Shown: in pieces, positions 2,972-8,379 of the stretch | Layout: each line of letters opens with the position of its first letter | Position numbering within the stretch: the stretch's first letter is position 1 | From: an uncultured Hellea sp. | GTDB lineage: Bacteria; Pseudomonadota; Alphaproteobacteria; Caulobacterales; Maricaulaceae | Reading direction: 5' to 3' | DNA: 34,591 nucleotides | Assembly: GCA_937995665.1 (NCBI GenBank) | Contig: CALKIX010000019.1 | Span: forward strand, 1 to 34,591 | Position numbers and translations under genes: made by a program | Notes under the pieces: model-generated | The model's input: only the letters and a program-made list of their open reading frames with translations | What the model was told of the DNA's origin: nothing | Databases searched by the model: none

Positions 2972-3700
2972 CTAGTTTTCTTTTTGGAACTCAATTTCCA
3001 GCTTTATAGCGATGTCCGCACCTGTGCTGATATATTTATCAATTCCAAAGTCAGCGCGCTTAACATGAGCGGTCGCAGAGATGCCGAACATATCATTTTG
3101 ATTCCGGAAATTCTTCCCAATTTTATTGAGCTTCGTCGTCAGTACGACGGGCCGGGTCACGCCCATAATCGTCAGGTCTCCCGTTAGAGTCCCGCGCCCC
3201 GTGACGATCTGATTGACCTCAGTTGAACTAAAGGTGATTTTTGGGTGATTGGCCGCGTCAAACCAATCCGCGCTCACAAGGTGCTCGTCAAAAACGTCAA
3301 CGCCGCTATCAATAGAGGCGACATCGATTTCGGCCGTCACAGTAGAATTGGCTGGGGTTTCGCTATCGAGATTAACAACAGCGTCAAACTTTCCCCAGCG
3401 TAATATAGGCCTTGAGTATCCCTGGTGGTCATAAGAAAAAGCGATATAGGCATGTCCTGCTTCAGATTTATAAGTACCAGAAGGAAGCCCAGAAATATCC
3501 ACGCCGGGCGCAGAGGGTTTACCTGAGAGCTTCGGCCCATCGGGACGGCCAGGCTTATTGGCGGCGTGCTGAACAGCACTTGCTGCTTTAGAGGCTGTTT
3601 CGGCCGTTGCAGCCGCCTTTTCAGCGGTCGCCTCAGCCCCGCTACAGCCCGCAAGAAAACCAATAGCTAAAATTGATGACGTAAAGTGAATGAGCCGCAT
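2972..3700 (-). CDS. YceI-family lipoprotein
   Basis: The 242-residue YceI-like protein belongs to a lipocalin-fold beta-barrel family that binds polyprenyl or other amphiphilic lipids in the periplasm. The N-terminus MRLIHFTSSILAIGFLAGC is a lipoprotein signal with lipobox LAGC, so Cys19 would be lipidated. An Ala/Lys/Glu-rich spacer (residues 22-48) resembling a short helical stalk follows, then a Pro/Gly linker. The YceI domain spans about residues 75-242, with the diagnostic segments DSETPANSTVTAEIDVASIDSG, FDAANHPKITFSS and GDLTIMGVTRPVVL. A GAGGAT ribosome site lies 6-7 bases before the ATG. It follows the SelO gene on the same strand after 65 bases and may or may not be cotranscribed. 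Most YceI proteins are simply secreted, so lipidation is a modest variation. Confidence 0.9.
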   Translation of the reverse strand: MRLIHFTSSILAIGFLAGCSGAEATAEKAAATAETASKAASAVQHAANKPGRPDGPKLSGKPSAPGVDISGLPSGTYKSEAGHAYIAFSYDHQGYSRPILRWGKFDAVVNLDSETPANSTVTAEIDVASIDSGVDVFDEHLVSADWFDAANHPKITFSSTEVNQIVTGRGTLTGDLTIMGVTRPVVLTTKLNKIGKNFRNQNDMFGISATAHVKRADFGIDKYISTGADIAIKLEIEFQKEN

Positions 3701-3765
3701 AAATTATCCTCTAAATAATACTAAATCAGTGGATAGCTATATCAACAAATCTGCTCCGAGGCGAA

Positions 3766-5100
3766 TTATAAATTAAATTGTTTGAGCTTGGCATGAAAGG
3801 CTGACCAATCATCATCCTTATCAATAGGCTCCCAGAGCGCGCCTATCTCGTCATAGAGCAATGAGGCGAGCAGGCCTTCATCCTTGGCCCCTGCCGTCTC
3901 ATAAGCGCTATAAAGGGCTTTCCATTCAGCAAAGCTGTCCCCCTGGTAAAAACTGTTATTAGGCGATTCCTTTGGCGCTTCGCCGCCTTGCCAGTCATGC
4001 CAAAATTGCGGCCAAGGCGCTTGGCTCTGCTCAAGATATTTGAACATTTTCAATATAAAGGCCATGTCCTCTTTGGGCGCTTTAGGGGTCAGCTTTAGGC
4101 GCCGAAACACATGGCGTGCCAAAGCCTCTTGATACGCTGTGGAAAAACGCTCTAACGCGGCAATCAAAGCTTTATCATCGCAGATAAGCGACAGGCTTTG
4201 GGCGAGCTGCGCCAGATTCCAATACATAATATCGGGCTGCTTGCCAAAAGCGTAGAGCTTATTATGGTCAAAATAGGCGGCAGTGTAATCTGATTTTAAA
4301 GTCGGCAGAAAGCGATAAGGGCCATAGTCAAAACTCTCGCCGGTAATATTCATATTATCCGTATTCATCACCCCATGCACAAAACCGCAGGCCATCCAAG
4401 AGGCGACCATATCGGCTGAGTTATGAGCGCAGGCCGCAAGGAGCCCCGCAGGGCCTTCAGCATCAGGATAAAAATGGCGCAGGCAATAATCGACGAGGTT
4501 TTCAAGATTATCCGTATTGTTGAAAAAAGCTTGGCGCTGGAACGTCCCGAAGCGAATATGCGAATGTGAGAGGCGCACCAGAACGGCCGAGCGCGTGGGC
4601 GAAGGCTCATCATGGCGCTGCAAGGCCTCTCCTGTCTCAATCAATGAAAGACTGCGAGATGTATTCACGCCTAAATGCTGGAGATAACGCGTGGCCAAAA
4701 CTTCGCGCACCCCGCCCAGCAACGTCAAGCGCCCATCCCCGCGCCGCGAATAAGGCGTCTGGCCTGAGCCCTTCGTGCCCAAATCTAAAAGCCGGCCCGC
4801 CTTATCTTGCAACTGCGCAAAGAGAAAGCCGCGCCCATCGCCAAGCTCATGATTATAATGCTGAAATTGATGGCCGTGATAACGTAAAGCTAGGGGCTGA
4901 TTAAGTGAGCCGTCCAATGGCTTAAAGCATCCAAAATGTTCAATCCACGCTTCATTGCTAAGCGCAAGGCCAATAGAGCGGGCCACCTTATCATCGCGGT
5001 AGCGCAAAAGGGTTTTAGGAAACTCTGCTGCGCTAACAGCATCGTAAAACTCATCCCCTAATTCATAGATGGTCTGGCGCGGATGATAGCCCTTACTCAG
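3766..5100 (-). CDS. selO: SelO/YdiU protein adenylyltransferase (pseudokinase), likely CTG start
   Basis: SelO transfers AMP from ATP to Ser/Thr/Tyr of target proteins. Family motifs are clear: LRYHGHQFQHYN, GTKGSGQTPYSRRGDGRL (ATP-binding Lys), GVREVL, then HGVMNTDNMNI and DYGP, which supply the Asn and Asp metal ligands. Canonical start codons only allow TTG 5007, which would delete the conserved segment TIYELGDEFYDAV. That segment is encoded in frame directly upstream, so I extend to CTG 5100, which overlaps the preceding gene's stop as CTGA. With that start the key residues fall at Lys110, Asp248 and Asp258, a constant few residues before the numbering I recall for the Pseudomonas enzyme (113, 252, 262). 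The protein is 444 residues against about 480-490 usually. The missing part is C-terminal, including the region that ends in Cys/Sec in many homologues. It is last in a four-gene overlapping operon. Confidence 0.88.
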   Translation of the reverse strand: MSKGYHPRQTIYELGDEFYDAVSAAEFPKTLLRYRDDKVARSIGLALSNEAWIEHFGCFKPLDGSLNQPLALRYHGHQFQHYNHELGDGRGFLFAQLQDKAGRLLDLGTKGSGQTPYSRRGDGRLTLLGGVREVLATRYLQHLGVNTSRSLSLIETGEALQRHDEPSPTRSAVLVRLSHSHIRFGTFQRQAFFNNTDNLENLVDYCLRHFYPDAEGPAGLLAACAHNSADMVASWMACGFVHGVMNTDNMNITGESFDYGPYRFLPTLKSDYTAAYFDHNKLYAFGKQPDIMYWNLAQLAQSLSLICDDKALIAALERFSTAYQEALARHVFRRLKLTPKAPKEDMAFILKMFKYLEQSQAPWPQFWHDWQGGEAPKESPNNSFYQGDSFAEWKALYSAYETAGAKDEGLLASLLYDEIGALWEPIDKDDDWSAFHAKLKQFNL

Positions 5101-6041
5101 GAGTTTACTGCCATATATTTGCGTAGAAAATCAGCCGCATCGAGCGGAATTTTTCGCGCCTTTGGGAAAGCTTTGGAAAAGTTCAAAAACCCATGGGGCA
5201 GCATTTTCTCATGGGCGTAAAGCACATCGACCCCTTGGGCCTGCATATTATCTGCATAGAGCTTGCCTTCATCACGGAGCGGGTCCAATCCGCAGGTCAG
5301 CACAAAGGCAGGCGGGAGCCCTTTTAAGTCTTTCTCGAATAAAGGAGACAAGCGCGTTTCATGGGGATTAGCCCCATTGACATAATGCTCATCAATGAAT
5401 TTTAGCGCCATAAATCCAAGCTGCAGCCAATCTTGAGGGCCGGGTTTTGGCGGCTTAAAATCAACGAGCTGCATTAAGGGGTAAAACAAAATCTGCGCCT
5501 TTAAAACATCGCGATATTTTTGCGCAAGATAGGCCGTCATATTCCCGCCCGCGCTATCTCCGCCAAGCCCAAGATTATGCCGGTCAATGCCGTATTCTTC
5601 TTGGCCAAGACCTTCTAGCGCCCATTTTAAAACGGCCTCACAGTCCTCGGGGCCTGCGGGGTAGGCATATTGAGGGGCGAGGCGGTAATCGACCGATATC
5701 ACGCGAAAGCCCGTACCAGCGGCAATGCGCTTGGCGATACCTTCATGGGATTCAATTGAACAGGTTACAAAGCCCCCGCCATGCAAATATATAAATGATG
5801 GCCCAGATGTCTCCCTGGCCTGGTGCGGAATATAAAGTCTGACGGGCACAGGGTAGTCCCCATTGGGTACGTTAAAATCAAGTGTCTGGCGCATGGCGGG
5901 GGGCGGGGCGTCAAATTGGTTTGTCATGCGCCGAATGCTGTGATGAAAATTATAAATTTGCTCTGGCCCCGGCTTAAGCTTCTCCATTTGCTCGCGCATC
6001 ATCTCTGTGAAGTCTTTGGCAGATTTCATCAATTCATTCAC
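5097..6041 (-). CDS. Alpha/beta hydrolase of the hormone-sensitive-lipase family
   Basis: This 314-residue serine esterase/lipase belongs to the HSL (GDSAG) family. The oxyanion-hole motif HGGG is at 87-90, the nucleophile elbow GDSAGG places Ser163, and the remaining triad members are Asp253 (DPLRDEG) and His283 (LPHGFLNF). The substrate is unknown; short-chain acyl esters are typical for the family. The start is GTG 6041, with GGAGG about 9 bases upstream. It overlaps the preceding DUF924 stop as GTGA, and its own TGA overlaps the proposed CTG of SelO as CTGA. Its place after an acyl-CoA synthetase gene suggests a lipid-related job, but that is inference. Confidence 0.92.
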   Translation of the reverse strand: MNELMKSAKDFTEMMREQMEKLKPGPEQIYNFHHSIRRMTNQFDAPPPAMRQTLDFNVPNGDYPVPVRLYIPHQARETSGPSFIYLHGGGFVTCSIESHEGIAKRIAAGTGFRVISVDYRLAPQYAYPAGPEDCEAVLKWALEGLGQEEYGIDRHNLGLGGDSAGGNMTAYLAQKYRDVLKAQILFYPLMQLVDFKPPKPGPQDWLQLGFMALKFIDEHYVNGANPHETRLSPLFEKDLKGLPPAFVLTCGLDPLRDEGKLYADNMQAQGVDVLYAHEKMLPHGFLNFSKAFPKARKIPLDAADFLRKYMAVNS

Positions 6042-6580
6042 GGTGAATATCCTCCGCCTTTTAGAAAGGCTTTCTCTTCATCAGTTGAAGCGCGTCCTAG
6101 CACGGCATTTCTATGCGGAAAGCGGCCAAAGCGTTTAATCAGTTTTCTATGTTCTATAGAATGGTGAAGCGTGCTTGGATTATCAAGGCGGCTATCACAT
6201 AATTTTACACACATATCCTGCGCGTCAATATTCTCAGCATGCATGAAAGGCATATAGATAAAGGCCCGTCGCGATTGAGATATTTTAAGATCCCAGCCCT
6301 TATCCACCATAGCCTTCGCTAAGCTTAAAGCTTTCTCATCCCAAGCAAAGGCGGCGCGTGTTCCGCGGTACATATTTCTTGGGAATTGATCGAGCGCGAT
6401 AATTTTCGCAAGCCGTGTTTCTGGCGTGACGCCCCAAGATATTGCCCCCGCAGCTATATCTATGGCCGTGTCTTCAAAATGCGTGCGTATTTTCGCATCA
6501 AAAGCATCCGACGATTTATACCAATAAGGCGCATTGTCTGGCTTAAACCAGAACTCAAGGATATCGGCGGGGCGCGTTAT
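6038..6580 (-). CDS. DUF924 family protein, likely ATA start
   Basis: DUF924 proteins are small, all-helical (TPR-like fold) and of unknown function. The first canonical start is ATG 6373, giving only 111 residues and losing the conserved N-terminal half. That half is present in frame without interruption: ILEFWF, YWY, and IALDQFPRNMYRG, all hallmark DUF924 segments. Reading from ATA 6580 gives M(ATA)TRPADILEFWF, matching the usual N-terminal pattern, and 180 residues, the usual family length. The frame upstream of ATA contains no ATG, GTG, TTG or CTG before a stop at 6599-6601. ATA overlaps the upstream gene's TAA as ATAA, with AAGG 2 bases before it, so translation by re-initiation is plausible. 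ACG 6577 is an alternative. Other conserved parts are MPFMHAE and HRKLIKRFGRFPHRNAVLGR. Function is not known. Confidence 0.85.
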   Translation of the reverse strand: MTRPADILEFWFKPDNAPYWYKSSDAFDAKIRTHFEDTAIDIAAGAISWGVTPETRLAKIIALDQFPRNMYRGTRAAFAWDEKALSLAKAMVDKGWDLKISQSRRAFIYMPFMHAENIDAQDMCVKLCDSRLDNPSTLHHSIEHRKLIKRFGRFPHRNAVLGRASTDEEKAFLKGGGYSP

Positions 6581-8379
6581 AACCTTAGCTCGCCTGTGTT
6601 AATACGCTCAAAGACAGCCGCATCCACAGGCTCGTAAGCCCCGCTCGCAGAATTGGCAAAATAAATAGGCTCTGAGATATTTGCGGGATTATAACCTGCT
6701 TTGACCAGATTTGTCTTTTTGAACTTAAAGGTACTTGTCGTCTCCGCCTCTTGAGAAAGACGCAAAAAGACAGGGCGGGCATATAGGGGTAAGTTCTCGT
6801 CAATATGCGCTTTCAAGGCCGTTAGATCAGGCTCACCTTCGGAGATAATAGCGGCCATACCGGCGCGGCCATCATAGCCCGGCACTTGTACGCCGTAAAC
6901 ATTAGCCTGCGTAATGCCCTTGAATTTCGATAAAGCGGCCGCGACTTCGCCTGTCGCCACATTCTCGGCCCGCCAGCGATAAGTATCCCCAACCCTATCC
7001 ATAAAATAATAATAGCCCAGCTTATCGCGCTTGAGTAAATCTCCTGTGCGAAACCAAGCATCATCCTTTTTGAAAACATTTCGCAGGATTTTCTTTTGCG
7101 TCGCGGATTTAGTTTCATAGCCTTCAAAACGAAAACGCGGATCATCCGTTCTAATCTCGGCAATTAATTCGCCGCTCTCATTGTGGTCGGCGTGAAGACA
7201 AAACCCATCAGAGCCGCGCGGGTTTATATCCGTATCGACATCATATTTGATGATATCGAGATTAAACTTGAACTTTAAATAATCCGGCACACGCCCGACC
7301 GCGCCAACAGGCCCGTCTACATTGACCAAAATCGCATTGCCTTCCGTCGAGCCGTAAAATTCAATCACATGATCGATATTAAAACGGCCGACAAAGCTCT
7401 CCCAAACATCAGGTCGCAAGCCATTGCCAACCATCCATTTGATGCCATGACTACGCTCTAGGCGGTGAGCGGGGGTCGAGAGCAAAAAGCGGCAAAGCTC
7501 GCCTACATAGGTAAACATAGTGGCTTTATATTCCACAGCCTCTTCCCAAAATTTCGTTGCCGAGAAACGTGGGCGCACGATAACCGCGCCGCCATTACTT
7601 ATGGCGCAACCAACCCCAACGAGCCCGCCTGTCGCGTGATACATCGGCAAAACCATCATCATGCGGTCAGAAGGCCCGCCCTTACAGCCTGCCGCCATGC
7701 CGCGCATGTAACTCTGTCCTCGAACATGGGTCACCTTAGCCGCCTTAGGTAGCCCTGTTGTGCCCGAGGTAAACATCTTCATAAATTGATCGCTAGCCTT
7801 AATACCCGTACGTGCCGATTTAGCTGGACGGTCTGGGACATAGTGAGAAATAGCCTCATCAAAATTCTCAAAGCCATCCACTTGGCCAAAGGCGCAAAAG
7901 GCCTTTACATTATTTTGCAAGCCATCTTTGGCCGCCTCATATTGATCGATGAGTTCATGATCGATAATCACTAAAGACGCATTGGAGATATTAATACAAT
8001 GGGCCAGCGCATCTCCGGTCAGTTGAAAATTTAGTAAAGCTGGAACAACTCCAACCTTGGTTAGCCCCAGCCACAAAGCGACATATTCCGCGCGGTTACG
8101 CACAAAGACCGCCGCCGTATCTCCCGCTTTCATACCTTCCGCTAAAACCCAAGCGGCAACGCGGTTGGCATATATTTCCATGTCATTATAGGTGAGCTGC
8201 TTATCATCTTCTATAAAGGCAAGATTTGCGCCAAAACGATCAATGCGCATCTCCAGCTCATCGGCCATGAGGTGATTGCCTTCAGCGTCAATTGTCTTCA
8301 CGGCCCTTAGCATACGCAAGAGACCTGATACGAACTTCACTTCGCGCTTAATGGCTGCAAACATAGAGATTTCTTTCAT
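6577..8379 (-). CDS. FATP-type long-chain acyl-CoA synthetase
   Basis: This 600-residue AMP-forming ligase activates long or very long fatty acids to acyl-CoA and resembles the FATP/ACSVL branch (FadD6-like) more than FadD. Seen in order: the P-loop-like TSGTTGLPKAAKVTH (204-218), the FYGSTEGNA adenine-binding motif, the FATP signature region GYYYFMDRVGDTYRWRAENVATGEV, and the C-terminal YARPVFLRL...TSTFKFKKTNLVKAGYNP. It is first in an operon with DUF924, HSL hydrolase and selO. A TTGACC/TATGGT promoter candidate lies immediately upstream and would leave almost no leader. ATG 8379 follows an A-rich stretch without a clear ribosome site. The in-frame ATG at 8364 (MFAAIKREV) is an alternative start. 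Confidence 0.93.
   Translation of the reverse strand: MKEISMFAAIKREVKFVSGLLRMLRAVKTIDAEGNHLMADELEMRIDRFGANLAFIEDDKQLTYNDMEIYANRVAAWVLAEGMKAGDTAAVFVRNRAEYVALWLGLTKVGVVPALLNFQLTGDALAHCINISNASLVIIDHELIDQYEAAKDGLQNNVKAFCAFGQVDGFENFDEAISHYVPDRPAKSARTGIKASDQFMKMFTSGTTGLPKAAKVTHVRGQSYMRGMAAGCKGGPSDRMMMVLPMYHATGGLVGVGCAISNGGAVIVRPRFSATKFWEEAVEYKATMFTYVGELCRFLLSTPAHRLERSHGIKWMVGNGLRPDVWESFVGRFNIDHVIEFYGSTEGNAILVNVDGPVGAVGRVPDYLKFKFNLDIIKYDVDTDINPRGSDGFCLHADHNESGELIAEIRTDDPRFRFEGYETKSATQKKILRNVFKKDDAWFRTGDLLKRDKLGYYYFMDRVGDTYRWRAENVATGEVAAALSKFKGITQANVYGVQVPGYDGRAGMAAIISEGEPDLTALKAHIDENLPLYARPVFLRLSQEAETTSTFKFKKTNLVKAGYNPANISEPIYFANSASGAYEPVDAAVFERINTGELRL

Follow-up and report, generated by a model that had tools for sequence, protein, structure and literature searches.

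Conserved ATA codons at stop–start overlaps as candidate start codons of DUF924 and SelO genes in a Hellea genome and its relatives

The DNA analysed here (the window) comprises 34,591 nucleotides of an uncultured Hellea sp. of the family Maricaulaceae (GenBank assembly GCA_937995665.1, contig CALKIX010000019.1) and represents contig C19 of a draft genome (G000) of 1.37 Mb and 82% completeness. Its minus strand carries a string of genes for an acyl-CoA synthetase, a DUF924 protein, an alpha/beta hydrolase and SelO, all four of which were placed by Pfam search (Table 1), and the DUF924 gene of this string very probably starts at an ATA codon, seldom used by bacteria for initiation, lying on the stop codon of the synthetase gene. 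The Pfam match of DUF924 was full length (E 2.3e-58, profile positions 1–180 of 180, from residue 7) and that of SelO nearly so (E 1.4e-134, profile positions 10–463 of 466, with the MNTDN and GHQF segments present). A first-pass annotation, made from the window sequence, had described 4-nt stop–start overlaps reading ATAA, GTGA and CTGA at the three junctions of this string, and both their coordinates and their tetranucleotides were borne out exactly.

Codon-by-codon reading from the in-frame stop to the conserved FWF segment of DUF924 (CAC AGG CGA GCT AAG GTT ATA ACG CGC CCC GCC GAT ATC CTT GAG) revealed no ATG, GTG, TTG or CTG, in agreement with the first-pass annotation, which had proposed ATA or the following ACG as the start and had not listed the in-frame ATC as a candidate. 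Six of the ten genomes of the genus carry DUF924, and in all six an ATA lies on the synthetase stop, as ATAA in G000 and G009 and as ATAG in G003, G005, G007 and G008. This ATA is situated six codons before the Ile of the DIL.FWF motif, the same spacing as that of the ATG used in two genomes of another genus (G010 and G028), which supports its proposed role as the start codon. The first canonical start after ATA is reached only after 69 codons in G000 and G005, 56 in G003 and G007, 21 in G009 and 7 in G008, the last being the only one of the six with an early canonical start. This exceeds chance, as the overlap codon was ATA in 207 of 887 control genes ending in TAA or TAG, compared with six of six DUF924 junctions of the genus. 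The alternative start at ACG is unlikely, as conservation is lacking at this codon (the other genomes have GTT, GTC or AAA), and the presence of ATA in six separate genomes rules out a base error at this position. A recent private G-to-A mutation was also considered and is rejected, given the conservation of ATA in the genus. In other genera the same synthetase–DUF924 junction reads ATGA (G018 and G021) or TTGA (G013 and G014), so the overlap probably predates ATA, and the ATGA ancestor suggested in the first-pass annotation is plausible, with a change from ATGA to ATA at the base of the genus.

Nor is ATA a peculiarity of one strain or one gene, as it also occurs at the start of SelO in relatives. 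SelO was present in 121 of 137 genomes of the family, and its junctions were read in 50 of these 121 (the 30 best and 20 more), with 8 of the 20 falling in a group of close SelO that totals 38 genes, the window's own included. The column of the orthologous start contains ATA in 14 of these 38 genes, ATG in 6 and GTG in 3; another ten have a canonical ATG, GTG or TTG at a shifted place (rows read by eye), and three (G001, G002 and G006) present both ATA and a nearby TTG. The remaining 12 loci of the second batch encode more distant SelO, and each of them has ATG or GTG. The 14 ATA-bearing genomes belong to five genera (G009 and G005; G077, G075 and G078; G024; G014; G087, G017, G091, G033, G083, G081 and G088), and every ATA sits in ATAA or ATAG. 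In 13 cases the gene whose stop it overlaps was identified, encoding a glutathione S-transferase (GST) in 11 and an Abhydrolase_3 protein in two (G017 and G087), so that ATA is not tied to one upstream gene. One of the alignments (A2) was selected on ATA, so the invariance of ATA within it is no evidence in itself. No in-frame ATG, GTG or TTG precedes ATA in 8 of the 14 genes, while the next canonical start lies 59 (G009), 70 (G024), 60 (G014), 29 (G087), 122 (G083) or 126 (G088) codons downstream, and just 11 in G077 and G017. Distant SelO provided a control: among the best 80 of at least 593 matches of 31–45% identity, 78 were testable, and in none of these was the most upstream canonical start fewer than 45 codons before GHQF (minimum 62), compared with 8 of the 38 close genes (six with ATA, plus those of G000 and G004). 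A far more distant type of SelO (about 33–44% identity) is the sole SelO match in several family members (G020, G072, G073, G082 and others), and G011 contains two SelO matches on separate contigs (C394 and C117).

For the window's own SelO the first-pass annotation had required CTG; the CTGA overlap is real and CTG is the probable start, with the first canonical start 31 codons further on, but no other gene among the 38 uses CTG, which lies two codons 5' of the column where 23 of the 38 have ATA, ATG or GTG. SelO of G000 therefore does not share the conserved AUN start. The GST gene, a frequent neighbour 5' of SelO, is absent from the string in several genomes (G000, G003, G007 and G017, among others), and CTGA sits at a junction that lacks it. 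The confinement of CTG to a single draft genome of 82% completeness leaves room for a base error at this codon. As a general explanation of the odd starts, assembly or base errors or gene decay are nevertheless very improbable: they are refuted for ATA, which recurs in six (DUF924) and 14 (SelO) separate genomes, and the window's genes present a full DUF924 profile, an almost complete SelO profile and no internal stops. A further oddity was observed in G004, whose SelO (L338, contig C79, position 22750) has no ATG, GTG, TTG, CTG or ATN before the conserved N-terminus and only a GTA, on a GTAG overlap, which points to an extreme start or else to an error of assembly.

Within the region following ATA, substitutions fall mainly on third codon positions in both genes, indicating purifying selection up to the ATA itself. 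The ratio of nonsynonymous to synonymous differences (pN/pS) was 0.39 in the ATA-proximal segment of DUF924 (first 55 codons, six genomes) versus 0.23 in the body of the gene, and 0.38 in that of SelO (first 57 codons, 14 genomes) versus 0.32 in the body (11 of the 14), with synonymous sites near saturation (pS about 0.8). Short Shine–Dalgarno (SD)-like stretches are found in the upstream genes: GGAG lies 8 nt 5' of the SelO ATA in 11 of 14 genomes, AGGAG 7 nt 5' in G087, where the hydrolase is upstream, and GAGG 7 nt 5' of the DUF924 ATA in G005, G008 and G009. The G-A-E conserved in the transferase may account for part of the GGAG conservation.

Several observations weigh against ATA as a conserved and functional start. 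Many relatives carry ATG, GTG or TTG in its place, and the SelO tree requires at least seven changes between ATA and other starts, so that a weak start is not indispensable; moreover, the genomes are kin and the counts given above are not independent. The SD-like element preceding DUF924 is weak in G000, and only AAGG and AGAG precede the SelO ATA in G017 and G091, respectively. In G033 no Pfam family was matched by the open reading frame (ORF) that ends on the SelO overlap, and upstream of it lies the end of a longer ORF, so a real gene may not be involved in this overlap. Other potential starts exist in the same frame, including a TTG 7 codons into DUF924 of G008, a CTG 7 codons 5' of ATA in DUF924 of G009, an ATC or ATT six codons after ATA in all six DUF924 genes (although this Ile is also conserved where ATG is used) and a TTG, ATG or GTG 24–25 codons 5' of ATA in six of the 14 SelO genes, where the frame is open and the codon lies inside the preceding ORF. 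The ATC or ATT of DUF924 and the −24/−25 codon of SelO raise the possibility that the real starts lie elsewhere, either there or at downstream ATG or TTG codons, which we consider improbable. The codon at −24/−25 is missing in 8 of the 14 SelO genes, and in six of these 8 the frame 5' of ATA is closed after 6–15 codons (after 20 in G088 and 61 in G083). Downstream starts would delete conserved sequence, and in G083 the one at codon 122 would remove part of the stretch that matches solved SelO structures (query residues 62–389); ATA also coincides with the ATG or GTG of orthologues.

Another explanation accepts ATA as the start but assigns it no regulatory role, the codon being a tolerated relic whose bases are constrained by the C-terminus (R-L or G-L/I) and stop of the upstream protein. 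The upstream proteins do show conservation of both tails, R-L and G-A-E-x-G-L/I, and ATA has repeatedly been gained or lost in SelO. The synthetase C-terminus is R-L in 12 of 17 loci parsed (20 were tried), yet its final Leu codon is TTA in all six that precede an ATA-started DUF924 and CTT or CTG in all six that do not, so the amino acid by itself does not explain ATA. In addition, the stop at the ATA junctions varies between TAA and TAG, whereas TGA, which could not give ATA, does not occur; ATA is retained while third positions are near saturation; and in SelO it is also present where the upstream gene is the hydrolase. A relic without a regulatory role is possible but unlikely. Fusion of the downstream to the upstream protein by programmed −1 frameshifting or readthrough would be in keeping with the shared frame relation of the downstream genes and with a frame that is open across the upstream stop, but is scarcely credible: visual inspection revealed no shared slippery heptamer (TTATA(A/G) is common to the DUF924 junctions but not to those of SelO), the DUF924 frame is closed one codon upstream in G007 and three in G003, G005 and G008, and no consensus RNA structure was predicted at the 14 SelO junctions.

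The absence of canonical starts appears specific to these genes rather than genome-wide. An overlap survey of about 1.6 Mb of 11 genomes yielded 218 co-directional pairs in which the downstream frame remains open through the stop of the upstream gene. The most frequent tetranucleotide among them was ATGA (72 pairs), and the 4-nt geometry itself is ordinary. Only 8 of the 218 pairs lacked a canonical start both upstream and within 20 codons downstream, all of them involving DUF924 or SelO, seven with ATA and one with CTG. An ortholog scan, for which 395 kb were added to give about 2.0 Mb of the 11 genomes (parts of genomes), comprised 520 gene calls with an orthologue, of which 228 had two or more, and some extension before the first canonical start was found in 62 of the 520. 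Only DUF924, SelO, infC and one weak ORF beside infC, the last two having one orthologue each, showed extensions of at least 30 codons that half or more of the orthologues supported. Two shorter extensions were fully backed (25 codons in DUF924 of G009, 8 of 8 orthologues; 18 codons in SelO of G017, 10 of 10), and 29 codons were reached by two other calls, each with a single orthologue. Most of the shorter extensions have the backing of just one or two orthologues, and the ones looked at in detail resemble conserved flanks. SelO of G005 and DUF924 of G008 went unflagged because a canonical start lies in their open frame. A relaxed start code across the clade is unsupported in the stretches examined, the scan singling out DUF924, SelO and infC.

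The recovery of infC, which encodes initiation factor 3 (IF3) and is the classic example of a gene under IF3 control, provided an unplanned positive control of the scan. This gene was found in 36 of 37 genomes, and the 23 loci read by eye start with ATC (11), ATA (9) or ATT (2), one being cut off; the encoded IF3 proteins appear ordinary. The infC start varies by lineage, with ATC in G010, G017 and those members of the window's genus that could be read, ATA in G014 and several other genera, and ATT in the two genomes of family f3 that were read. The 30 of 37 tRNA loci scanned in G010, which belongs to another genus, included three tRNAs with a CAT anticodon and none with the TAT anticodon that would mark a UAU initiator; G000 itself is incomplete, with 13 tRNAs. 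The ORF immediately after infC in G007 (L376:14094-15071, plus strand) has no canonical start for about 61 codons and an orthologue in G009 only; an ATT is located 1 nt after the infC stop, making this ORF a possible further case of a near-cognate start.

ATA is retained near synonymous saturation, occurs with two kinds of upstream partner and is accompanied by the Leu-codon contrast, which together argue for selection on the codon. We therefore consider it very probable that AUA represents a selected weak start at the upstream stop, with low output and perhaps sensitivity to IF3, in DUF924 and SelO across genera. According to this proposal, DUF924 would be initiated at the AUA overlapping the acyl-CoA synthetase stop (AUAA or AUAG), with ribosomes that end the upstream gene restarting on AUA, aided by the short SD-like stretch in its 3' end. 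The ordinary fMet-tRNA (anticodon CAU) would be used, and its third-base mismatch on AUA would be disfavoured by IF3, making initiation inefficient. SelO would be initiated likewise across several genera of the family, and from CTG in G000. AUA would then be kept by selection, most simply because it holds DUF924 and SelO low, ties them to translation of the upstream gene and leaves them responsive to IF3, as AUU, AUC or AUA do for infC. A bolder version, which we put forward only tentatively, is that AUAA/AUAG constitutes a distinct stop–start signal and that in this family DUF924 and SelO form a small regulon set jointly by upstream termination and IF3 discrimination. If this were true, the AMPylating SelO and DUF924 would follow the state of the initiation machinery as infC does, and their junctions would offer a natural test of whether IF3 proofreads re-initiating ribosomes.

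The shared odd start has the appearance of a control signal that has been retained, not of an error, and suggests that these bacteria must keep SelO and DUF924 at low levels or coupled to the initiation machinery. A practical consequence is that start-finding limited to ATG, GTG and TTG misses such genes or shortens them, in this case by as many as about 120 codons.

The gene string was also compared between positions 2972–8379 of the window and the equivalents in G005, G009 and G028. It is longer in relatives, comprising DUF924, DJ-1/PfpI, hydrolase, GST, SelO and YceI in G009, where the DJ-1/PfpI gene separates DUF924 from the hydrolase; a similar ORF is present in G005, G010 and G028, while the string of G000 lacks both DJ-1/PfpI and GST. 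The YceI-like gene that follows SelO in the window is probably a further member.

Table 1 Features of the gene string in the window.
Feature	Position	Strand	Evidence or remark
Acyl-CoA synthetase (AMP-binding, PF00501), upstream gene	6577..8379	-	C-terminus R-L (AGG TTA), then TAA
ATAA overlap: synthetase stop TAA and probable DUF924 start ATA	6577..6580	-	ATAA/ATAG in 6/6 DUF924-bearing genus members
AGGCGAG, weak Shine–Dalgarno-like, its GAG 8 nt 5' of ATA	6589..6595	-	By eye; presumed function
DUF924 gene (PF06041), 180 amino acids counted from ATA	6038..6580	-	Pfam; codon-level purifying selection in ATA-proximal segment
GTGA overlap, ordinary GTG start of hydrolase	6038..6041	-	Sequence
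Alpha/beta hydrolase (Abhydrolase_3, HSL-like)	5097..6041	-	Pfam
CTGA overlap: hydrolase stop and probable SelO start CTG	5097..5100	-	Sequence; orthologue alignment
SelO (protein adenylyltransferase, PF02696) gene, 444 amino acids counted from CTG	3766..5100	-	Pfam
YceI-like gene (PF04264, E 7.3e-37) after SelO	2972..3700	-	Pfam

Both elements of the proposed mechanism have precedents, as conserved AUA starts and NTGA or −4 overlaps are each known, and it is their combination that appears to be new. Among the matches listed in a literature search that left subscription journals mostly outside its reach, no report was found of an AUA start at a stop–start overlap or of a non-canonical SelO start. 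Escherichia coli pcnB reportedly has an IF3-sensitive near-cognate start as well, in a single gene, with AUU rather than AUA, and is not known to involve an overlap. IF3 disfavours weak third-base pairs, according to the available text of a titration that left out the AUA/CAU pair (PMC10158994). In Staphylococcus aureus reporters, near-cognate AUA and AUU starts are described in the accessible part of the source as reaching about 10% of AUG in poor medium, and the ccpN AUA up to 30% of AUG in rich medium (PMC13009471). Overlaps of the −4 type are reported to couple translation through re-initiation (PMC6728339, PMC12548453), and IF3 is reported to affect this coupling, with conflicting direction (PMC12548453). 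The portion available of a 2025 review (PMC12548453) listed as an open question which form of the ribosome, 30S or 70S, re-initiates in coupled translation and what IF3 does to it, and a conserved AUA at a stop–start overlap may serve as a natural probe of both.

Two known systems resemble the one proposed here, as far as the available parts of the sources describe them. The first consists of infC and the S. aureus starts of infC, ccpN and citZ (AUA) and cvfC1 (AUU) (PMC13009471), which are alike in their conserved AUN start and SD-like element, as well as in the third-base mismatch to fMet-tRNA and the expected low output; the present cases differ from these infC-type starts in that the genes are DUF924 and SelO. 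The second is termination–reinitiation at ATGA or NTGA overlaps, where the available text of PMC6728339 gave no match for 'ATA' and that of PMC12548453 none for 'AUA'. It shares the −4 geometry and the SD-like stretch inside the upstream gene, but while NTGA forces an NTG start and a TGA stop (PMC6728339; PMC12548453), the ATAA and ATAG junctions described here would combine a near-cognate start with TAA or TAG.

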